From NCBI GenBank assembly GCA_017521365.1, contig JAFXCT010000088.1, positions 1 to 40,823 of the forward strand: a stretch of 40,823 nucleotides of DNA, read 5' to 3'. Every line of letters starts with the position of its first letter. Within the stretch, counting starts at the first letter, position 1. Shown here one piece after another: positions 20,474 through 31,095 of this stretch. The notes under the pieces are model-generated. The model was not told the DNA's origin, made no database searches, and was given only the letters and a program-made list of their open reading frames with translations. The position numbers and the translations under genes were made by a program. The DNA comes from Clostridia bacterium. Its GTDB lineage: Bacteria; Bacillota; Clostridia; Oscillospirales; Acutalibacteraceae.

Positions 20474-22213
20474 TTATTTGTTGATTTCCTTTGCAAGTGC
20501 GTTGAGTGTTGCAATTGTTGCCGAGCCTGCTTTATCGCCGGTTGAGAGCATTTCCTCATAGTGTCTGTGGTAGGGGCCGAAGAGCTTGTCGGCGCCGTCC
20601 ATATCCCAGATTGTGTCGGCAATGAAGTGGGCGTAGTCGTTGTCGGGGATAATATAGCCGATAGCATCGTTGCAAAGGCCCATTACGAGCACCGTCTTGC
20701 CCTCGGGAATAAGGTCAGCCGTAGCGTCAAGTGTCCATTCCGTGCCGAGGTAGGAGTCCTCTGCTGAAATTACCTGGCCGTAAATAAGCTGGGGCACAAT
20801 TTCGCCCGGTGCGGTGAGCACAACTATGCTCTTGCCGATTTCAATATAGCCGGCTTCCGTAATGATTGAATAGCCGCTTTCGCTTGAAGCGTCCTCAACC
20901 GTAGTCGTGCCGATGAAGCCCTCTGTTGCGCCGTAGGGGAGCAGACCCTTGCCGAGCGGTACAACATATTCCGTCATTTTAACGTTGAGTATCGGCTCAA
21001 CCTCAGTGGCATTTTCCTGCGCCTCAAGAATAAGGCTTGCAAACTCATAGCCGAGCTGTTTGGAAACCCTGTAATCCTCAACCGTCGGGTCAGCCGCAAT
21101 TTCCGCCTCAACCTTGGCAACTATCTCTTCGGGCATTTCTGTCCACTTGTTTACCGAAACGGGAGCCTGTGCGCCCTGAATGAACATAAAGTTCATACCT
21201 GCCGCATTGATTTCGCTTTCCATAAATGCAGGGAAATCAGCGGAAAGGAGCTTTGTCGTTTCGTCAATAACTGTGGGGTGTGCACCGAAGTTTGTGAAAA
21301 CCGTCGGAGCGGAAGCCGTGTTGTCGGGCACGAATTTGAAGCATGCCATAAAATTCTGGAAGGTTTCCGTATAATATCTCTTGTTGCAAAGGTAGGGGTA
21401 TTCGTCGTCAAGGAAAATGCCTGCGCCTTCGTCCTTGCCCATTGTTGCGCTTTCAAAGTAGTAAAGCTTGCCCTTTTCCATATTGAGGTATGCTTCAACA
21501 ATTGCATCGGCTGTTTTGTTAATCATAACCTCAAGGAACTCGCTGTCAATCGACCTGTCTGCGCCCGTGAAAAAGCTCTTGAGGATTTTCGGGAGCAGGT
21601 CAAGGCCGATGCCCTGCGTGTCAATAACCGTGTGGCAATGAGTTGCGTTTATGTTTATAGCGTTGATGTTTGCAAAAACGCCCTTTTCAAGCAACTTCTT
21701 TTCGGCTGCGGCTCTGATTGCACGGATATCCTTGTTGGCAACGCCTATGCCGTCAACCGAGGCAAAGATTGTCGTGCCTCTGCCCGAGCCATCCTCCATA
21801 GCAATTGCGACAGCCTTCTGGTCATCGTAAACTCCGCTGACCTTCTGGGTGAAGTAGCCGCCCGTGTAGTATTTCTTTGTGCCGTCAAGCAGGTTTTGGG
21901 GCACAAGGCTTTCCTTGCCGAAGCCGAGTGACCACTGTGCTCCCTCTGCGGCTGAATCAAGAAACTCTGCCGTACCTGCATAGAAGTTTTCGCTCTCGCC
22001 CTTGAAATATTCCTCAACTGTCGGATAGTCGGGTGTCGGTGCAAGGAACCCAAGTAAGCCGATTGCGCCGTCAATAATTCCGCCAAGCACGGTCGTTACC
22101 GCCCTGATTGCGGTGTTGTGTCCTGCGGAAGCGGAGGCCGCAGATGCGTTGACCGAGAAAAGCATTGTGAATACAAGAAGTACTGCGATGAAGGTTTTAA
22201 AGCTTTTTTTCAT
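20474..22213 (-). CDS. Secreted neutral-ceramidase-like protein
   Basis: A 579-residue protein with a signal peptide (MKKSFKTFIAVLLVFTMLFSVNASA). Zinc-site elements of neutral/alkaline ceramidases are present: NATHCHTVID (H192, H194), NFGAHPTVID (H312), GEIVPQL (Glu) and NDAIGYIIP (Tyr), and it ends with HRHYEE. The family's nucleophile motif GDVSP is GAQAP here, so the catalytic Ser is Ala350. Ceramide hydrolysis is thus uncertain; another zinc hydrolase role is possible. The ATG follows AAAGGAG and lies 14 nt after the paralogue's stop, so the two are one operon. Confidence 0.7.
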   Translation of the reverse strand: MKKSFKTFIAVLLVFTMLFSVNASAASASAGHNTAIRAVTTVLGGIIDGAIGLLGFLAPTPDYPTVEEYFKGESENFYAGTAEFLDSAAEGAQWSLGFGKESLVPQNLLDGTKKYYTGGYFTQKVSGVYDDQKAVAIAMEDGSGRGTTIFASVDGIGVANKDIRAIRAAAEKKLLEKGVFANINAININATHCHTVIDTQGIGLDLLPKILKSFFTGADRSIDSEFLEVMINKTADAIVEAYLNMEKGKLYYFESATMGKDEGAGIFLDDEYPYLCNKRYYTETFQNFMACFKFVPDNTASAPTVFTNFGAHPTVIDETTKLLSADFPAFMESEINAAGMNFMFIQGAQAPVSVNKWTEMPEEIVAKVEAEIAADPTVEDYRVSKQLGYEFASLILEAQENATEVEPILNVKMTEYVVPLGKGLLPYGATEGFIGTTTVEDASSESGYSIITEAGYIEIGKSIVVLTAPGEIVPQLIYGQVISAEDSYLGTEWTLDATADLIPEGKTVLVMGLCNDAIGYIIPDNDYAHFIADTIWDMDGADKLFGPYHRHYEEMLSTGDKAGSATIATLNALAKEINK

Positions 22214-22227
22214 AACATATATCTCCT

Positions 22228-23703
22228 TTATTTTATACTTTCTTTAATCAGTTTTTCCGTTGTTTCAAGCAGGATTCTTCCCGTTTCGGGGCCCGTTGAA
22301 TTCGTTTCCTCGTAGTGGTCTCTGTCCATATCGTCGGTTGCCTTGTTTATGTAGGGCAGCGTTTCGTTAAGCATAAAATCGTTTTCCGCAAGTATGTAGC
22401 CAAGCTCATCGTTGCAAAGACCGATAACGAATTTGTGCCTGCAGTCCGTCATATCGCAAAGCACCTTTTTGTAGCTTGCCCTGCGGTGGTGTGCGCTGTC
22501 CTTTTCGGTTAGGAATTCGCCGTTGTAAAGCTCGGGGAAAAGCTCACCCGGTATAAGGAAAATGCCGACGTCCTTTTCGCCCAGCTCCATATAACCGACC
22601 TCGGAGCGGATGCAGACCTTGTTGCGCTTGTCGGTGCGTACAATGTCGTTATTGAGCACGCCGATAAACCTTGCAAGAATAAGCACCGTGTTTGCGCCCG
22701 GAATGTCAACGCCCGTTGATTTTATGTTCAGTATCGGCTTGAGCTCGGTTTCATTCTCTATTGAAAGGGCAAGCTCGCCGAGCTGCTTGCCGAAGCCCGT
22801 CATATATTCCTTGCAGTCTATCGTGTTGCGGTAAACCTTCTTGATTTCCTTTGCGGATATCATTCCGCCGATTGCGCCGTTGAAGAACACCGCCTTTGAG
22901 CCGGGCACGTTTTCTTCAATTTCCTTTATGAGATAAGCCGGAAAATCCGCACTGACAAGGCTTGTATCGCCGAGCAATTCTGCGTGAGAAGCAAAGTTGA
23001 CAACGTATACGTCGCCCGAATTGTCAAAGGGGGCAAAGCGGAATCTCGTCAGGTTTTTGTCGTAGGTCTCGGGCGTTCTTACATCCGCCTGCATATCCTC
23101 AGCCTCAGTATAGCCCATAAAGAGCCTGCCGTCCTTGCGGTTTTCAAAGGCTTCAATAATTGCCTTTGCAGCCTGCTTTTTAAGGTTTGCGAGGAAGGCA
23201 GCGTCTTTACCGGTTTTGTATAGCTTTTCGCCCCACAGTCCTTGCGTATCAATACCTGCGTGGGTGTGGGTTGAAGCAATGTTGAGTGACTTGATTTTGC
23301 CGATTTTACCGCTTTCAAGCACGAGCTTTCTGATGTCGTTTATATCGTGCCTGCTTATTCCCACACAGTCAAGCGAGCAGAAGACAGCACCGCCGTTACC
23401 TCGGTTGTCGTCAAGATAAACCGCCCTTGCACAAAGGTCGTCAAGCACGCCTTTTACGGGGTTGTTGGAATCATAGCCGGCTATGTAGTAGGTTTTTTCG
23501 TTGTAATCCGTCGGGGTGAAAGCAGCTTTGCCGTAACCGCAGGTCCATTTTATGCCTGCATTGCAGCTGAAAGCTTTGTCGCCCGTTTTCATATATTTGT
23601 CCGCTGCTTCACGGGTTGTGAAAAAGCGCTTGGGCATAGTTGAAAGAATGGTGTCGGTAAGCGCACCGACAGAGCCTTTGATGATTTTGTCTTTGAAATT
23701 CAA
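22228..23703 (-). CDS. Neutral-ceramidase-like protein, cytoplasmic paralogue
   Basis: A 491-residue homologue of the downstream gene without a signal peptide. It keeps IASTHTHAGIDTQG (H146, H148), NFASHAELLG, PGELFPELYNGEF and CNDELGYILAENDF, and the end DHYEETNSTGPETG is typical of the family. The nucleophile region reads NGAIGGM in place of GDVSP. The likely start is TTG 23703 with GGGAGGC 7 nt upstream; no suitable ATG is near. First gene of the pair. One paralogue appears intracellular and one exported, suggesting related chemistry on both sides of the membrane. Confidence 0.7.
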   Translation of the reverse strand: MNFKDKIIKGSVGALTDTILSTMPKRFFTTREAADKYMKTGDKAFSCNAGIKWTCGYGKAAFTPTDYNEKTYYIAGYDSNNPVKGVLDDLCARAVYLDDNRGNGGAVFCSLDCVGISRHDINDIRKLVLESGKIGKIKSLNIASTHTHAGIDTQGLWGEKLYKTGKDAAFLANLKKQAAKAIIEAFENRKDGRLFMGYTEAEDMQADVRTPETYDKNLTRFRFAPFDNSGDVYVVNFASHAELLGDTSLVSADFPAYLIKEIEENVPGSKAVFFNGAIGGMISAKEIKKVYRNTIDCKEYMTGFGKQLGELALSIENETELKPILNIKSTGVDIPGANTVLILARFIGVLNNDIVRTDKRNKVCIRSEVGYMELGEKDVGIFLIPGELFPELYNGEFLTEKDSAHHRRASYKKVLCDMTDCRHKFVIGLCNDELGYILAENDFMLNETLPYINKATDDMDRDHYEETNSTGPETGRILLETTEKLIKESIK

Positions 23704-23853: not shown

Positions 23854-24417
23854 ATGGTGTCCATCAGAAAATACGAGGAGAAGGACAGGGAAGACGTGCA
23901 CTTCGTCAACCACAACAGCGACGGTCCCGAGGAAGTGCCGAACTACCTGACGGGCTTGTTCTATCTTAATACATTTTGTAACTATTATATAGAACATGAG
24001 CCTGAAAACTGCTTTGTCCTTGATGATGACGGAAGGGCTGTCGGCTACATACTCTGTGCCGAAAGCTTTGACCGCTTCAAGGAGATTTTTGACATCGAGT
24101 ATCTTCCACGTTCCGACAGCTACGGCGAGGACAGATACGAATGGGCTTCCACAGCCTACTTGCGTCAGGAAGAATTTAAGGAAGACTATCCTGCCCATTT
24201 TCACGTTGACATTCTGCCCGAATACCAGCGAATGGGTATGGGCGGCAAGATGGTAGATACTCTGTGTGCTCACCTGAAACAAAAAGGCGTCAAGGGCGTT
24301 TGCCTTACCTGCGGCCCGAGAAACGAAAAAGCAATGAAATTCTATGAAAAGCATAATTTCACCCTGCTGTCAATCGACCACGACGACGCCTGCTTCGGCA
24401 AAAAACTTACCGATTAA
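23854..24417 (+). CDS. GNAT-family N-acetyltransferase
   Basis: A 187-residue GNAT. The acetyl-CoA loop is VDILPEYQRMGMGGKMVDTL, followed by GVKGVCLTCGPRNEKAMKFYEKHNFTLL. The N-terminal half (PNYLTGLFYLNTFCNYYIEHEPENCFVLDD) resembles GNATs that associate with hexosamine-related enzymes. The gap to the next gene is 26 nt, so it probably heads the 24444-kdsB transcript. An amino-sugar acceptor would fit the context but is not shown. Confidence 0.85.
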   Translation: MVSIRKYEEKDREDVHFVNHNSDGPEEVPNYLTGLFYLNTFCNYYIEHEPENCFVLDDDGRAVGYILCAESFDRFKEIFDIEYLPRSDSYGEDRYEWASTAYLRQEEFKEDYPAHFHVDILPEYQRMGMGGKMVDTLCAHLKQKGVKGVCLTCGPRNEKAMKFYEKHNFTLLSIDHDDACFGKKLTD

Positions 24418-24443: not shown

Positions 24444-25655
24444 ATGGCATCACCCGAATTGGTAGAACAGCTTTATCAGGCATTGCCCGATGAAACAAAA
24501 GAATTCCTCGCAACCGCAATCGAAAAGGTTGTCGAGGTTAAAAAACGCGGCGGTAAGGTTGCAGCCGTTATCGGCAGCGGCCCCAACCTCCACGAGGGCG
24601 TAACAACCCTTATCGCTACACTCATTCACGCAGGCCTTATCGACGGCGTTACAACAAGCTCTGCTGTTATCTCCCACGAAATGGGCGGTACGCTTGACCG
24701 TGTTAAGCGTTTTGACGCAGATATTCTTGGCGACAAGTGCCCCGAGGATATCCGCTGCCGAGGCAACATCTACGAGCTTACACAGCTTGACGAGGCAGAG
24801 TGGGCAAGAATCCGCTCCGAAATGCCTCTTGACGAGGAGCTTGTCGAAATCTGTGAAAAGGCAGAGGGCAAGGTTATCATCAAGGCGGCAGGCAATATGG
24901 CTTACCCCGTAGGCTGGTTCAACGAAACCGTTTCCACAGAGGTTATGGTTGCCGCACAGACTCTGGGCGAGAGCTTTGAGTATGTAGCAGGTCTCGGCGC
25001 TGACCCGAGAACAATGATAGGTGCAGGCGCAATCAAGGGTGTTCCCGTTCTTGTAAGCGTTCCCCAGCTTATCGGCGGCGGTCAGGTCGGCCTTTGCATT
25101 TCCGACAGTATTCCCGTAAGCCAGCGCTGCAAGAGAATTGCAAAAATGCTTTCCGATGCAGATGTTATCATTGAATCCGCAGTTGCTCTCACTCAGGAAA
25201 TTCACGACGGCCCGTTTGAAACCTACACCGGTCACGGTATCTGGGCTTCAATGAACGGCCTGCCCACATACAGCCTCAAGGACAAGACTCTCATCCGTTT
25301 TGACCTTGATGAAAACCTTAAGCGTTCCTGGGACCTCAACAAGCAGAGCGAGCTTATCCAGAAGGCAATCAACGAGGGCCTTCCCAAGACCAAGCTTACA
25401 AAGATTCCGTTCCGTATGGAAATGTCAGCCTTCACACGCCTTGAAAACAGTATCCCCGTTATCGGCGATATTGGCGAGCTGTGGCCGATATTTGTTGACC
25501 GCATCTGCAAGGAGCTCGGCGTTGAACTCGATTTCTCCTCCGCTCCTCAGAATACCGAAGAGGGCAAGGCAATGCGTGAGCGCATTGTTGAAGAAATCAA
25601 GCCCTTCTCACTCAACAAGATGCGCAAGGCAGTCAGCGAAAAATACAAGTTTTAA
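24444..25655 (+). CDS. Unrecognised 403-residue enzyme-like protein
   Basis: No family is recognised with confidence. It is soluble with strongly patterned motifs: VAAVIGSGPNLHEGVTTLI, DGVTTSSAVISHEMGGTLDR, GKVIIKAAGNMAYPVGWFNE, GLGADPRTMIGAGAIKGVPV, and PQLIGGGQVGLCISDSIP. The GSGPN and AGLIDGVTTSSAVISHE segments recall the Rossmann layout of deoxyhypusine-synthase-like or LOR/SDH-like proteins, but only in outline. Codon use indicates good expression. ATG 24444 is chosen (AGGAG 8 nt upstream) over the in-frame TTG at 24438. It is 23 nt upstream of kdsB, so a step in the same sugar pathway is a fair inference. Confidence 0.7.
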   Translation: MASPELVEQLYQALPDETKEFLATAIEKVVEVKKRGGKVAAVIGSGPNLHEGVTTLIATLIHAGLIDGVTTSSAVISHEMGGTLDRVKRFDADILGDKCPEDIRCRGNIYELTQLDEAEWARIRSEMPLDEELVEICEKAEGKVIIKAAGNMAYPVGWFNETVSTEVMVAAQTLGESFEYVAGLGADPRTMIGAGAIKGVPVLVSVPQLIGGGQVGLCISDSIPVSQRCKRIAKMLSDADVIIESAVALTQEIHDGPFETYTGHGIWASMNGLPTYSLKDKTLIRFDLDENLKRSWDLNKQSELIQKAINEGLPKTKLTKIPFRMEMSAFTRLENSIPVIGDIGELWPIFVDRICKELGVELDFSSAPQNTEEGKAMRERIVEEIKPFSLNKMRKAVSEKYKF

Positions 25656-25678
25656 TTGATATAAAGGAGATTAATGCA

Positions 25679-26428
25679 ATGGCTAAGGTATTAGGTGTAA
25701 TTCCCGCACGTTACGGTTCATCCCGTCTTCCCGGCAAGCCCCTCAAGGACATCTGCGGCAAGCCGATGATTCAGCACGTTTACGAAAACGCAAGCAAGTC
25801 CAAGGTGCTCGACAAGGTTGTTGTTGCTACCGATGACCAGCGTGTTTACGATGCAGTCGTTGCCTTCGGCGGCGAGGCTGTTATGACAAGCGTTAACCAC
25901 CCCACGGGCTCTGACCGTGTGGCAGAGGCTGCAAGCCACTATCCCGACTGCGACTATGTTATCAACATTCAGGGTGACGAACCCCTTGTTCCCCCCGAAA
26001 TTATTGACGATATCGGCTCGGCACTCATCAACAGCCCCGAATGTGTTATGGCAACGGGCAGCGTGCCGATTGACGGCGAGGATTACATTAAGAACAACAC
26101 CGTTGTCAAGGTTGTAACGGACGTCAACGGCAATGCTATCTATTTCTCCCGTTCACCCATTCCTTACCCCCGCAATGCTCAGCACGCAAAGTATTTTGAG
26201 CACGTAGGTATCTATGCCTATACGCACGATTTCCTCAACACATACACCAAGCTTGCACCCACACCGCTTTCGGAGTCCGAATCTCTTGAGCAGCTTAAGG
26301 TGCTTGAGCACGGCTACAAAATCAAAATCGTTCCCGCACCTGCACAGTATGAGGCAGTAAGCGTAGACACGGAGGAAGACCTTCAGGCAGTTATCCGTAT
26401 CTATAAGGAACGTAACGGCCTTTGCTGA
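25679..26428 (+). CDS. kdsB: 3-deoxy-manno-octulosonate cytidylyltransferase
   Basis: A 249-residue CMP-Kdo synthetase, which couples Kdo to CMP from CTP. Motifs: IPARYGSSRLPGKPL (nucleotide loop), TSVNHPTGSDRVAEA, VINIQGDEPLVPP, YFSRSPIPYPRN, HVGIYAYTHDFL and SESLEQLKVLEHGYKI. Length is normal. AAAGGAGATTAATGCA precedes the ATG. No kdsA, kdsC, kdsD or LPS gene is nearby, and a Gram-positive has no lipid A. The substrate may be Kdo for a capsule or a related 3-deoxy sugar acid. A strong terminator follows. Confidence 0.92.
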   Translation: MAKVLGVIPARYGSSRLPGKPLKDICGKPMIQHVYENASKSKVLDKVVVATDDQRVYDAVVAFGGEAVMTSVNHPTGSDRVAEAASHYPDCDYVINIQGDEPLVPPEIIDDIGSALINSPECVMATGSVPIDGEDYIKNNTVVKVVTDVNGNAIYFSRSPIPYPRNAQHAKYFEHVGIYAYTHDFLNTYTKLAPTPLSESESLEQLKVLEHGYKIKIVPAPAQYEAVSVDTEEDLQAVIRIYKERNGLC

Positions 26429-26438
26429 TTTGAGCTGA

Positions 26439-26480
26439 CCCCGAATGAAATATAATCAGGTTTCATTCGGGGCTTTTCTT
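26439..26480 (+). terminator. Terminator after kdsB
   Basis: CCCCGAATGAAA (26439-26450) and TTTCATTCGGGG (26461-26472) form a perfect 12-bp stem, then CTTTTCTTT. The loop contains TATAAT (26451-26456). Confidence 0.9.
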
Positions 26481-26509
26481 TAAAAACAAGAAATACAGGA
26501 GGCATTACT

Positions 26510-27529
26510 GTGATTAAAGCTGAACTTTTATATCAGGAATATATTTCAACCGAAGGCATTAACGACGAAATCGGCGAGTGCCACGCAGCTACCGTTGCAA
26601 TCTGTAACGGTACGCCCACAGCCGCATGGTTCGGCGGTATTAAGGAAAAGAATCCCAATGTCCGCATTTGGTTTACACGCCGTGACGGCGAGTGGAGCAC
26701 ACCCGTTGCCGTAACGCCCGATGACGGTGAGGCAGACTGGAATCCCACCCTCTTTGCGGAGGACGGCGTGCTTACTCTTATTTATAAGAGCGGTATTGAC
26801 GAGGGACATTGGTATTCAATGAAGTCTGTTTCCGAGGACGGCGGTAAAACCTGGTCAACACCAGTTGAGCTTGTACCCGGCGATATCGGCGGCAGAGGCC
26901 CCGTCAAAAATCAGATGATAAGACTTTCCAACGGTGCGCTTCTTGCTCCCGGCTCAACCGAGGATATCGGCGACCGCTGGGAATCCTGGACAGACTACAG
27001 CGATGATAACGGCGCAACGTGGAAGCTGTCTGCACCTGTTGCCTTTGAGCTTCCGGACGGCACAATCTGCAACCGCAAGGAAGAGCTTCCCAAGGACGGC
27101 GAGGGTCTTATTCAGCCAGCAGTTTGGGAAGACCCTGCACACGACGGCAGAGTTTATATGCTCGCAAGAACAAACCTCAACTGGGTTTACCGCAGCGAGT
27201 CAACGGATTTCGGCAGAAGCTGGTCTGTTGCCCGTCCCACCGATATGCCCAATAACAACAGCGGTCTGGGCGCAGCCCTTACGGATTGCGGCGTGCTCGG
27301 TCTTATCTGCAATCCCGTAGGCGAAAACTGGGGCGACCGTACACCGCTCAATCTCTTCCTCTCTGAGGATAACGGCGCTACATATCCTGTAAGCATAGAG
27401 CTTGAAAACACTCCCGGCGTAGAGTTTTCATATCCTTCAATAGTTGCTGAAGGCAACCTTCTCCATATGGTTTACACCGTTGGCAGAAAGAAGATATGCT
27501 ACGCTCTCGTTAAGGTAGAAAAAGACTGA
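26510..27529 (+). CDS. Cytoplasmic sialidase-like Asp-box beta-propeller
   Basis: A 339-residue protein of the BNR_2 sialidase-like type. Four Asp-boxes are visible: SEDGGKTW (108-115), SDDNGATW (164-171), STDFGRSW (231-238) and SEDNGATY (285-292). The N-terminus CHAATVAICNGTPTAAWFGG is typical of BNR_2 proteins. The FRIP motif of classical GH33 sialidases is absent. There is no signal peptide, so the substrate is intracellular. Start GTG 26510 follows AGGAGG. It is 32 nt upstream of a membrane protein gene and behind kdsB, pointing to an acidic alpha-keto sugar such as sialic acid, Kdo or a relative. The exact glycosidase activity is unproven. Confidence 0.8.
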   Translation: MIKAELLYQEYISTEGINDEIGECHAATVAICNGTPTAAWFGGIKEKNPNVRIWFTRRDGEWSTPVAVTPDDGEADWNPTLFAEDGVLTLIYKSGIDEGHWYSMKSVSEDGGKTWSTPVELVPGDIGGRGPVKNQMIRLSNGALLAPGSTEDIGDRWESWTDYSDDNGATWKLSAPVAFELPDGTICNRKEELPKDGEGLIQPAVWEDPAHDGRVYMLARTNLNWVYRSESTDFGRSWSVARPTDMPNNNSGLGAALTDCGVLGLICNPVGENWGDRTPLNLFLSEDNGATYPVSIELENTPGVEFSYPSIVAEGNLLHMVYTVGRKKICYALVKVEKD

Positions 27530-27561
27530 TTGAAAAACTGAATATTGAAAGGGTTTAATAT

Positions 27562-28998
27562 ATGGAAACTCAGAATGTATTAGCATTTCTTGCCATAAGT
27601 ATGGTAACTATGTGCTTTGGCTGGGGTATGCGTGGCTCCGCAATCGGCGGCGAAAAAGGCGCAATGCTCCCCGGTGCATTTATGGGCATACTCTGTGTCT
27701 GGTACACAGGCTCCGAGCTGCTTATGGAAAACGTATTTCTCTTTGCTGCCGCCTGCGCACTCGGCTATTTCTACGGCGGTATGGAGCCCTACGGCTCAAC
27801 AATGTCCCTTGTCCTTCACCACGACCAGCCCCGTTATAATCCGTCGTTGGGTTATCTTGCACTGGCTTTCAAGGGCTCAATCTGGAGCGGTCTTGGCTCG
27901 GCATTTTTAGGCATCAGCTTCTCTGCAATGAGCGGCGTTGTTTACAAATGGTATGATTTCGTAATTTTCTTTGCACTTGTTCCGCTTGTACAGGAAATCG
28001 GCTACCGCATTTTCAACACACCCTACGACCCCGAACACGGCAGAATGCCCAAGGTCTGCTTCTCAAAGGACAGCCGTGAGGAGTGGGGACGCAATCTTGT
28101 TATAGTTGCCGGTCTTCTCGTTATGATGGCTGTACGCCGTGACTATTTCGGTATCCTTATGTGGATTGGCGGCGCACTCGCAGGCTCAGTCGGCTGGGTT
28201 GTTGCAATCTTCTTCTACGATAAGGAAATCAATCCCCTCAAGAACGGCAAGCGTCTGTTCGGCAAGTGGGACGAAGCCAACATTATTGATGGCTGGAAGA
28301 TTATGGAATTCACTCAGGGCTGCTTCCACGGCCTTGGTATAGCAGGTGCCTTTGTTCTCGGCTGGCCTATAGCTGCCAAGAATCTTGAGCAGGCAGAGGC
28401 CGCAGGCAAGCTGTGGTATGAGCTTCCCGAAAAGGTTGATACCACTCTTTCGTGGGTATTCTGCGCACTCATAATTCTCACAATCTTCCTCTTCATCATT
28501 CCTTACCGCAGAAACGGCAACAAAATCACCCGTGCCTTCGGCGAGGTTGATATGAACATTGTCGAGGTGCTTGAACGCCCCTGCTATATGGTAGGTCCGC
28601 TTTGCCTGGTTATGCTCGGCTCAAACTTAATGGCAGAAATTATCTGCTGCTTTACAATGTACTACGTAATTGCCCAGCACGACGGTCTGGAAAGATACTG
28701 GGATTACAAGGGTATCAAGTTTATCCGTATATTCCTTATTCTTCTGGGTGCAGTACTGCTTGCAATTCAGGCAATCAGAGGCTACACTCTCTGGGAAACA
28801 TGGGTATTCTACTGCGTAGGCTATATTCTTTTCGACGCAGTAGCCTTCCTCCGCCCCAAGAGAATCAAGGAAAACAAGGCAAAATCAAAATCCTTCAAGG
28901 AGTTCCTTATTGCCTTCAACGGTGACCTTACCGTTCTTCCCTTCTTCTATATCCTTATGGCAGGTCTGCTTGTCTTCGGTTACGCAAACTTCCGCTAA
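27562..28998 (+). CDS. Polytopic membrane protein A (GWGxRG...GGEKGAMLPGA family)
   Basis: A 478-residue protein with about twelve hydrophobic segments. The first is followed by the motif GWGMRGSAIGGEKGAMLPGA (20-39), a polar, Gly-rich signature within the membrane. Other strongly conserved stretches shared with the downstream paralogue are GYFYGGMEPY, EIGYRIFNTPYDPE, SREEWGRN, IIPYRRNGNKIT and IAQHDGLERYWDYKGIKF. I do not recognise a named transporter family. The build suggests a permease or membrane enzyme. Its gene follows the propeller gene by 32 nt and ends in a terminator, so the two likely work together. Confidence 0.75.
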   Translation: METQNVLAFLAISMVTMCFGWGMRGSAIGGEKGAMLPGAFMGILCVWYTGSELLMENVFLFAAACALGYFYGGMEPYGSTMSLVLHHDQPRYNPSLGYLALAFKGSIWSGLGSAFLGISFSAMSGVVYKWYDFVIFFALVPLVQEIGYRIFNTPYDPEHGRMPKVCFSKDSREEWGRNLVIVAGLLVMMAVRRDYFGILMWIGGALAGSVGWVVAIFFYDKEINPLKNGKRLFGKWDEANIIDGWKIMEFTQGCFHGLGIAGAFVLGWPIAAKNLEQAEAAGKLWYELPEKVDTTLSWVFCALIILTIFLFIIPYRRNGNKITRAFGEVDMNIVEVLERPCYMVGPLCLVMLGSNLMAEIICCFTMYYVIAQHDGLERYWDYKGIKFIRIFLILLGAVLLAIQAIRGYTLWETWVFYCVGYILFDAVAFLRPKRIKENKAKSKSFKEFLIAFNGDLTVLPFFYILMAGLLVFGYANFR

Positions 28999-29005
28999 AT
29001 AACAG

Positions 29006-29041
29006 AAAAAGCCGGTACATAGCTTATGCACCGGCTTTTAT
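29006..29041 (+). terminator. Terminator between the two membrane paralogues
   Basis: AAAAGCCGGTACATA and TATGCACCGGCTTTTA pair with one mismatch around GCT, ending in TTTTATTT. Confidence 0.85.
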
Positions 29042-29071
29042 TTAAAAATATCAGAAAAGGAGTGTGTGACT

Positions 29072-30505
29072 GTGACTGAAAGTCCGCTTCTCTTTATTGT
29101 TTTCAGCATGCTGGCTATGTGCTTCGGCTGGGGAATACGTGGCTCGGCTATCGGAGGCGAAAAGGGCGCAATGCTGCCCGGTGCCTTTATGGGCATTTTG
29201 TGCGTGTGGTACACAGGCTCTGAGCTGCTTATGGAAAACATTTTTCTGTTTGCTGCTGCCTGTGCGCTGGGCTATTTCTACGGCGGTATGGAGCCGTATG
29301 CCTCCACAATGTTTCTTGTCCTTCACCACAACAGACCCCGTTATAATCCGCCTTTGGGTTACCTTGCCCTTAGCTTCAAGGGCAGTATATGGGGCGGTCT
29401 CGGTGCGGCGTTTTTAGGTGTCAGCTTTTCCGCAATGAGCGGTGTTGTTTACAGGTGGTATGATTTTGTTATCTTCTTTGCCCTTGTTCCGTTCCTGCAG
29501 GAAATCGGCTACCGCATTTTCAACACACCCTATGACCCCGAAAACGGCAGAATGCCGAAAATCGGCTTCTCCGAGGACAGCCGTGAGGAGTGGGGACGCA
29601 ATATTGTAATCGTTGCCGCTTTGCTTGTTATGGCAGCGGTAAGAGGCGATATTTTCACGATTATTATGTGGTCAGGCGGTGCGCTTTTCGGCGCAATCGG
29701 CTGGGTTATCGGCATAACCCTTTACGATAAGCAGCACCATACACGCAAAAACGGCAAACGCCTTTTCGGCAGACTCGATGAAATCGGCGTGATAGACGGC
29801 TGGAAGATGATGGAGCTTGTGCAGGGACTTGCGCAGGGCTTTGGCATCTCCGTTGCCTTTGTTGTCGCCTGGCCTCTTGCAAAGGAAAATCTTTCTGCTG
29901 CTGAAAGTGCAGGCGCTTTGTGGCATCCTATACCGCAAACTGTCGATACCGTGCTTTCGTGGGTGTTCTGTGCTCTGATTATCCTTACAATTTTCCTCTT
30001 TATAATTCCTTACCGCAGAAACGGCAATAAGATAACAACGGCCTTCGGCGAGGTCGATATGAACATTGTTGAAGTTTTGGAACGCCCGTGCTATATGGTG
30101 GCACCCCTTTGCCTGATAATGCTCGGCTCAACCACAATGGCAGGCATAATCTGCTGCTTTACAATGTACTACGTAATTGCCCAGCACGACGGTCTGGAAA
30201 GATATTGGGATTATAAGGGTATCAAGTTTATCCGTATTTTCCTCATTCTGCTCGGGGCAGTACTGCTTGCAATTCAGGCGGTGCGTGGTTATACCCTTTG
30301 GGAAACCTGGGTATTCTACTGTGTCGGCTATCTCATTTTCGAGTTCTTCTTTATGTTCCGTCCGAAGCTGGTAAGTGAAAACCGTAAAAAGACAAAGACC
30401 TTCAGGGATTTTGTCGTTTCCTTCGGCTGTTCGGCAAGCGTTTACCCGACATATCTGCTGATGATGACTGCATTGCTTATCTTTGGCTGGGTATATCTGA
30501 AATAA
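29072..30505 (+). CDS. Polytopic membrane protein B, paralogue of A
   Basis: A 477-residue close paralogue of the protein at 27562, aligned without large gaps. By eye roughly three quarters or more of the residues agree, with long identical runs between residues 300 and 415 and the most divergence in the loop around 200-290. It keeps GWGIRGSAIGGEKGAMLPGA. I chose GTG 29072 because AAAGGAG is 9 nt upstream and the N-terminus then matches paralogue A; GTG 29066 is too close. It is followed 11 nt later by the DUF3842 gene. Recent tandem duplication with divergence of a central loop suggests altered substrate or partner. Confidence 0.75.
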   Translation: MTESPLLFIVFSMLAMCFGWGIRGSAIGGEKGAMLPGAFMGILCVWYTGSELLMENIFLFAAACALGYFYGGMEPYASTMFLVLHHNRPRYNPPLGYLALSFKGSIWGGLGAAFLGVSFSAMSGVVYRWYDFVIFFALVPFLQEIGYRIFNTPYDPENGRMPKIGFSEDSREEWGRNIVIVAALLVMAAVRGDIFTIIMWSGGALFGAIGWVIGITLYDKQHHTRKNGKRLFGRLDEIGVIDGWKMMELVQGLAQGFGISVAFVVAWPLAKENLSAAESAGALWHPIPQTVDTVLSWVFCALIILTIFLFIIPYRRNGNKITTAFGEVDMNIVEVLERPCYMVAPLCLIMLGSTTMAGIICCFTMYYVIAQHDGLERYWDYKGIKFIRIFLILLGAVLLAIQAVRGYTLWETWVFYCVGYLIFEFFFMFRPKLVSENRKKTKTFRDFVVSFGCSASVYPTYLLMMTALLIFGWVYLK

Positions 30506-30516
30506 GGAGTTTAGTT

Positions 30517-30927
30517 ATGAATATAACGGTTATTGACGGTCAGGGCGGTCAGCTTGGCGCACAGCTTATAAAGGCGGTGCTTTCACGCTTCCCCGAGGTT
30601 AATCTGACCGCTGTGGGCACAAATGCGGTTGCTACGGCAACAATGCTTAAAGCAGGGGCAAAAAACGCCGCAACGGGTGAAAATCCCACGCTTGTTGCCT
30701 GCCGCAAGGCAGATGTTATTATCGGCCCTATAGGTATAGTTATTGCCGATTCGCTTTTGGGCGAGGTTACGGGCAAAATGGCAGTTGCCGTCGGTCAGGC
30801 GGATGCCGTGAGAATACTCATACCCGTGAATAAGTGCGACAATATTGTTGCAGGCGTTTCAAGCCTTAATATCGGCGCACTTGTTGATGATGCAGTTTCA
30901 AGGCTTGCCGAGGTAATTAACCGTTGA
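30517..30927 (+). CDS. DUF3842-family protein
   Basis: A 136-residue protein beginning MNITVIDGQGGQLGAQLIKA, a Gly-rich nucleotide-binding-like loop, with VGTNAVATATMLKAGA, ADVIIGPIGIVIADSLLGEVT and VSSLNIGALVDDAVSRL. This is the DUF3842 pattern, small Rossmann-like proteins of unknown function common in Clostridia. AAGGAG precedes the ATG. It is co-transcribed with membrane paralogue B. Its TGA stop lies inside the -35 of the next promoter. Confidence 0.8.
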   Translation: MNITVIDGQGGQLGAQLIKAVLSRFPEVNLTAVGTNAVATATMLKAGAKNAATGENPTLVACRKADVIIGPIGIVIADSLLGEVTGKMAVAVGQADAVRILIPVNKCDNIVAGVSSLNIGALVDDAVSRLAEVINR

Positions 30928-30952
30928 CAAGAGCAGAAATTTAGAGTACAAT
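30924..30952 (+). promoter_or_regulatory. Promoter of the ECF/kinase leader
   Basis: TTGACA (30924-30929), 17-bp spacer, TACAAT (30947-30952). The -35 overlaps the stop codon of the DUF3842 gene. Confidence 0.85.
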
Positions 30953-31072: not shown

Positions 31073-31095
31073 GTATGGTTGAGAAAGGACTTTTT

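Follow-up and report, generated by a model that had tools for sequence, protein, structure and literature searches.

What does a cytidine monophosphate (CMP)-Kdo synthetase, KdsB, do in a Gram-positive gut bacterium for which no recognised means of making Kdo (3-deoxy-D-manno-oct-2-ulosonic acid) can be found? The question is raised by a 40,823-nucleotide stretch of DNA from Clostridia bacterium, the window of this study, which forms contig C113 in an 86% complete assembly of 130 contigs and 2.19 Mb. Its closest named relatives are Clostridia/Oscillospiraceae metagenome-assembled genomes (MAGs), most of them from ruminant and deer guts. In the window, kdsB lies with genes for a GNAT-fold acetyltransferase, an uncharacterised 403-residue protein (P402), an Asp-box propeller and two polytopic membrane proteins (MP1 and MP2, of a family that we call MP). 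A sequence-only reading had seen here an uncharacterised sugar-acid module that imports or builds, activates and cleaves a Kdo- or nonulosonate-like sugar. The comparisons described below indicate that KdsB, P402, which appears linked to Kdo in distant bacteria, and MP, which has no recognisable relative, belong to a conserved set in Gram-positive gut Clostridia. We propose tentatively, giving it somewhat less than an even chance, that the set imports and processes a 3-deoxy-2-ulosonic acid of the Kdo type, free or as a small glycoside, without recognised Kdo synthesis.

The set was followed by scanning a genome collection with an MP alignment, which gave 86 relatives, the best 80 loci being kept; the search patterns miss divergent members. 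In twenty-six loci the MP shares 83% identity or more with MP1 (the close loci, representing 25 MAGs because L046 and L095 come from one MAG), and the other MP loci number 54. Genes were counted by protein clustering, in which spurious antisense open reading frames (ORFs) in high-GC loci cause misses; tblastn recovered the propeller hidden in L059, and P402, KdsB and MP in L137/L109, and the clustering counts were left as they were. All 26 close loci have the propeller, and 25 combine it with both P402 and KdsB. GNAT is present in 23, and 21 have ceramidase-like genes. Eleven have a second propeller-type gene (c9) and seven have two MP genes. In 23 close loci the genes run collinearly as GNAT-P402-KdsB-(c9)-propeller-MP. 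Among the three exceptions, L047 has the propeller and MP without P402 or KdsB, and L050 and L053 retain the set with KdsB-P402 divergent from propeller(s)-MP. In another family, two genera (L059/L136 and L137; P402 86% and 77% identical, respectively) also retain it, with the same divergent arrangement. An IclR regulator gene adjoins MP in L050, L053 (in this case by family scan) and L059. Since the set recurs across close and rearranged loci, the possibility that the neighbourhood is not conserved in relatives is answered in the negative. Within the window's genus the distribution is patchy, seven of the 11 genomes searched carrying MP.

When four genes of the set were each compared with four relatives, the 16 comparisons gave dN of 0.009-0.12 and dS of 0.69-1.46, with KdsB the lowest in dN. 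These are real genes that evolve under strong purifying selection. The low dN relative to dS, together with the recurring gene order, places the set beyond chance.

The assignment of KdsB to the CMP-Kdo synthetase family is borne out by curated family cut-offs, namely those of NF003952 (310.4 bits, cut-off 193) and TIGR00466 (230.5 bits, cut-off 155.2), although it falls short of NF003948 (221.8 bits, cut-off 281). The nearest solved chain is KpsU (1gq9, E 5.5e-61), to which it aligns over residues 3-233, retaining the KpsU motifs throughout. These features bear on an alternative that we consider unlikely, in which the KdsB homologue acts on some other acid, the set degrades or recycles a different sugar acid of plant or host origin, and the Kdo link is ancestral only. 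CTP-transferases have indeed been recruited elsewhere, for example to phosphonate synthesis, as parts of one source describe (PMC6697681), and the glycosidase genes adjoining MP are varied (GH95, GH106-like, DUF4838 with a GH20-type domain, and GH78). However, the window's protein exceeds KdsB cut-offs, keeps the KpsU motifs and has the lowest dN of the four genes, and in unrelated genomes P402 accompanies Kdo genes.

Eleven genomes of the window's genus were searched for the known genes for making or transferring Kdo. KdsA was over its cut-off in none of them (0/11), and nine have a match below it; the sub-cut-off match in the window's own genome is a DAHP (3-deoxy-D-arabino-heptulosonate 7-phosphate) synthase (491 bits, cut-off 335). 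Neither the WaaA-type Kdo transferase (PF04413) nor the KpsC/S type (PF05159) was found in any of the 11 genomes, with models that fire on three and two of 14 controls, respectively. PF03102 (NeuB) exceeds a low cut-off in eight of the 11 (31.9-37 bits), at the sites of the weak KdsA matches, and in the window's genome the DAHP synthase is again the sole NeuB-family match. By these family searches the genus appears to have KdsB without a recognised route of Kdo synthesis. In the order as a whole, KdsB is over cut-off in seven of 245 genomes and P402 is present in three, all among those seven, so that four genomes have KdsB without P402.

The case for Kdo rests largely on P402. As had been suspected from its sequence, it is unrecognised: no family in Pfam or NCBIfam is over cut-off. 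Across the phylum it is in six of 398 genomes, counting the window and one weak match set aside; in one distant class of Bacillota it is in seven of 29 (three of them also in the 398-genome count), and in another class in one of 17. A weak match in G542 (32% over 60 residues, E 9.3e-4) is not counted as P402. Outside Bacillota none was found in plasmids or viral contigs, other phyla not having been searched. Full-length distant copies are 51-54% identical, with long invariant stretches. In the class of 29, P402 lies directly 3' of a PF04413 Kdo transferase gene in all six genomes with upstream sequence (G492, G679, G674, G669, G670 and G467; E 8.5e-56 to 1.2e-50), the distance between the two genes, by ORF limits, ranging from a slight overlap to 72 bp. 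In G467 the pair stands at a contig end and a different contig opens with the remainder of P402; the transferase gene of G670 is split over two ORFs. One P402-adjacent transferase scores 307 bits with the NCBIfam WaaA models (cut-off 438). In G665 (L139), the seventh P402 genome of that class, the contig starts inside P402 and continues with LpxC (246.7 bits, cut-off 187.25) and LpxA (378.4 bits, cut-off 226). This genome, which is 98% complete, combines genes of the lipopolysaccharide (LPS) type and P402 with no KdsA over cut-off.

The distant genome G617 has, on one strand, kdsB, genes for a solute-binding protein and two ABC permeases, a DapA/NanA-family gene (202.7 bits to DapA, cut-off 206.15), a BNR_2 propeller gene, P402 and an isomerase-like gene. 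There is no KdsA match in this genome, its P402 is broken by a run of N, and its propeller is 27% identical to that of the window. ABC importer genes thus seem to stand in G617 where the window has MP, which fits sugar-acid import and processing. Activation or transfer of Kdo appears to be the thread common to all P402 settings, and Kdo is put forward as the substrate class because P402 pairs with Kdo transferase genes.

The same pairing would suit an unlikely alternative, in which a surface glycan is built: P402, standing in for the KdsA route, would supply or remodel a Kdo-like sugar, KdsB would activate it, and MP would be a membrane glycosyltransferase or flippase. In its favour, KdsA is not over cut-off in five of the 11 P402 genomes tested (G000, G073, G160, G665 and G617), and the charged and aromatic residues invariant in MP (see below) would also suit an enzyme. 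However, the other six of the 11 have KdsA over cut-off with kdsB alongside, which rules out P402 as a general replacement of KdsA; in other loci MP is mostly beside glycan-degradation genes without KdsB; and the genus has no known Kdo glycosyltransferase family in its 11 genomes.

A distant resemblance gives some indication of what P402 might do. Its residues ~6-80 weakly match ornithine cyclodeaminase (TIGR00300), the C-terminal domain of ArgZ-AgrE, deoxyhypusine synthase (DHS) and the GSU2086 family. The scores are far under every curated cut-off (17.5 of 410.8, 12.6 of 304.25 and 19.1 of 250 bits for ornithine cyclodeaminase, DHS and GSU2086; 25.5, 28.7 and 29.2 bits for the L138 copy against the same cut-offs), and the remainder of the protein matches nothing. 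The first three families use NAD (nicotinamide adenine dinucleotide), and for that reason NAD chemistry is guessed at for P402, which we read as a probably NAD-dependent enzyme acting on Kdo or CMP-Kdo. GSU2086 itself is described, in the portion of the source at hand, as a hypothetical protein encoded between hldE and gmhA in a sugar biosynthesis operon (PMC5585712).

The membrane proteins, which had been described as paralogous and novel, are paralogues of an unnamed family (Table 1). MP1 and MP2 match no family in Pfam or NCBIfam at E 0.1 (NCBIfam was run on these two only), and Pfam on 48 MP members gave one stray match each to two families. Structure prediction, which had been suggested as a check, was informative for one of the two uncharacterised families. 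An AlphaFold2 model of MP1 is confident (pLDDT 89.8, pTM 0.92), and neither VIA-align nor Foldseek made any listed fold stand out, which does not by itself prove the fold to be new. The P402 model, made with 17 close sequences, is too poor for a fold search (pLDDT 47.1, pTM 0.53). An internal repeat in MP was considered and rejected, residues 1-240 and 241-478 giving no credible profile match (probability 1.1%). Nine residues are invariant in all 48 MP sequences: W21, R24, Y77, K104, W108, W245, K246, E249 and Y421. MP was not found in plasmids. In the other loci it adjoins varied glycan genes and, by eye, Hsp33-type housekeeping genes, and a GNAT of the same cluster as the window's is directly upstream of it in 13 of the 54. 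DapA/NanA-family genes are present in ten of these loci (L071, L077, L078, L090, L093, L097, L098, L102, L105 and L107), mostly divergent from GNAT-MP or MP, and they possibly mark a second sugar-acid context for the family. DUF1349 and GH78-type genes are often 3' of MP on the opposite strand (L036, L045, L051, L052 and others). MP is probably the importer.

FRIP and Asp-box patterns serve as sequence hallmarks of sialidases. The window's propeller has four Asp boxes (at residues 108, 164, 231 and 285) and no F/Y-RIP in its 339 residues, and no signal peptide was seen by eye, in agreement with what had been noted from the sequence. From the lack of a signal peptide the propeller would be cytoplasmic, where it may cleave a keto-sugar linkage. 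The second propeller-type protein, c9, is encoded between kdsB and the propeller gene and resembles BNR_2 weakly (34.5 bits; L024:10558-11601, minus strand).

Table 1. Features of the window discussed here, with the evidence for each.
Feature	Positions	Strand	Evidence
CER1, ceramidase-like	20474..22213	-	PF04734 24.7 bits (cut-off 32.1); signal-peptide-like N-terminus by eye
CER2, ceramidase-like paralogue	22228..23703	-	PF04734 24.7 bits (cut-off 32.1)
GNAT-fold acetyltransferase	23854..24417	+	Pfam PF00583 E 1.9e-13
P402, uncharacterised 403-residue protein	24444..25655	+	no Pfam/NCBIfam family over cut-off
KdsB, CMP-Kdo synthetase family, KpsU-like	25679..26428	+	NF003952 and TIGR00466 over cut-offs
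Terminator-like hairpin, kdsB/propeller gap	26439..26472	+	13 pairs, T-rich tail; -21.8 kcal/mol for 26428-26490, z -5.2
BNR_2 Asp-box propeller	26510..27529	+	Pfam E 1.5e-60
MP1, polytopic membrane protein, unnamed family	27562..28998	+	no Pfam/NCBIfam match at E 0.1
Terminator-like hairpin after MP1	29007..29039		-17.3 kcal/mol for 28996-29050, z -5.0
MP2, paralogue of MP1	29066..30505	+	74% identical to MP1; no Pfam/NCBIfam match at E 0.1
DUF3842 protein	30517..30927	+	Pfam E 4.7e-47

All the genes that the sequence-only reading had listed (KdsB, the propeller, the membrane pair, the 403-residue protein, DUF3842 and GNAT) are present on the plus strand, the two ceramidase-like genes (Table 1) being divergent. 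The extent and membership of the module need amending. GNAT belongs to the set and starts before the span that had been assigned to it, which began with P402, and the ceramidase-like pair had not been listed. The DUF3842 gene had been included, but beyond the window it occurs, among the loci examined, only in the two closest relatives, L031 and L032 (two of the 26 close loci), which rules it out as a member. Ceramidase-like genes are also seen in the distant MP loci L079 and L086; together with GNAT, the pair might exchange N-acyl groups of the substrate.

The shared strand stands, but a single transcript is doubtful because the hairpins after kdsB and MP1 are strong and fold far better than shuffles; the gene run is likely to be two or three transcription units. 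The scan places the hairpin after MP1 on the minus strand; by eye, a T run follows it on the plus strand. In total the terminator scan gave 17 sites against 14.1 expected, and since this count is near expectation only the two long stems are relied on. Intergenic gaps vary among relatives. A promoter-like site (11/12 matches) lies at 30924-30952 on the plus strand, directly after the DUF3842 gene, and downstream of it an ECF-type S component gene begins at 31075.

The first hairpin suggests a further alternative, distinctly unlikely in our view, of two adjoining modules: GNAT-P402-KdsB, ending at the terminator, and propeller-MP, serving a general glycan. L047, with its propeller and MP alone, fits this, as do GNAT-MP or lone MP in other contexts. 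However, the halves remain together through inversion in L050, L053, L059 and L137, a propeller adjoins P402 in the different setting of G617, and in L037, L039 and L048 the gap between kdsB and the next gene is just 20-28 bp, too short for the hairpin seen here.

We return to the import and processing of a Kdo-type acid by one set. In this scheme MP1 and MP2 would bring the substrate into the cell, where the cytoplasmic propeller or propellers would cut the keto-sugar linkage. KdsB would activate the freed sugar directly with CTP (cytidine triphosphate), no kinase being needed. P402, as an NAD-type enzyme by distant resemblance, would modify Kdo or CMP-Kdo, and GNAT would acetylate an amino group of the substrate or product. 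Kdo could plausibly come, in a herbivore gut, from the rhamnogalacturonan II (RG-II) of plants and from the LPS of other bacteria. Parts of one account describe the direct activation of Kdo by KdsB and attribute uptake of Kdo analogues to a sialic acid transporter, NanT (PMC12409901). The comparisons show the gene set and its conservation, the family of KdsB, the lack of recognised Kdo synthesis and transfer genes in the genus genomes searched, and the neighbourhoods that join P402 with Kdo transferase genes and with KdsB; we infer the substrate, the direction of each step, the use of NAD, import by MP and the fate of the product.

Several observations weigh against this scheme. The catabolic end is not seen, because no aldolase gene is among the genes of the window's set, nor is the use of CMP-Kdo, because the search for known Kdo transferase families found none. 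The six genomes in which P402 adjoins a Kdo transferase gene also have KdsA over cut-off, with kdsB beside kdsA in each, and since such genomes hold P402 it is not simply a salvage gene. By clustering, 53 of the 54 other loci have MP but neither KdsB nor P402 (the genome of L109 does carry them). A GPH-type sugar symporter gene adjoins MP in L079, L080 (by family scan) and L094, and would be redundant if MP were the importer. Four of the 11 genomes of the genus, one of them 99% complete, are without MP. Finally, a hairpin parts kdsB from the propeller gene in the window.

On balance, the sugar-acid module stands as a better-supported hypothesis than before, now turned towards Kdo by the pairing of P402 with Kdo transferase genes. 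Import and processing fit the ABC importer grouping of G617. Building is weakened, with none of KdsA, WaaA and KpsC/S found in the 11 genomes, and so is a nonulosonate, the NeuB match of the window's own genome being a DAHP synthase. A broader claim is doubtful and has the lesser chance of holding: that P402 is a new enzyme of Kdo metabolism common to LPS-type Bacillota and KdsB-only gut Clostridia, MP an acidic-sugar importer of new fold, and the whole a form of Kdo salvage.

If true, the proposal would add a step to Kdo biology, a field centred on Gram-negative LPS, and would give KdsB a role in Gram-positive gut bacteria to which the known route of Kdo synthesis is closed. In the herbivore gut, plant RG-II or the LPS of other bacteria would then supply Kdo as a shared nutrient or building block. 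The two uncharacterised families singled out here, P402 and MP, are open to direct, simple assays. No account of this gene set was found in the literature, of which subscription papers were poorly covered, and this is not proof of its being unpublished.

How does the set compare with known systems? The window's KdsB belongs with the KdsB/KpsU synthetases by family cut-offs and alignment, in a genus of which 11 genomes gave neither a KdsA above its cut-off nor any WaaA or KpsC/S match. In the Gram-positive Bacillus coahuilensis m2-6, a Kdo island is described, in the part of the source at hand, as having kdsB with kdsA, kdsC, kdsD and kpsC (PMC4744853). The two have in common kdsB in a Gram-positive, but the window's set has P402, a propeller and MP, with no kdsA or kpsC-type gene found. 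In the outer membrane/LPS locus of diderm Firmicutes, the Kdo genes waaA and kdsABCD occur in Bacillota; the sections of that source at hand name no P402-like gene, though they mention unnamed hypothetical proteins (PMC5007114). The genes of that locus that were tested were not found in the window's genus. With the BNR_2/sialidase superfamily the window's propeller shares the Pfam match and Asp boxes, but it differs from sialidases in having no FRIP-like motif or signal peptide, and among solved structures it shows just a short local match to the sialidase NanC. With scavenging operons of the sialic acid (nan) type, the set described here shares the keto-sugar-acid theme, the transporter, propeller and regulator and, in the G617 version, an aldolase-family gene; to these the window's set, in which there is no aldolase gene, adds KdsB and P402, with a candidate importer, MP, from an unnamed family.

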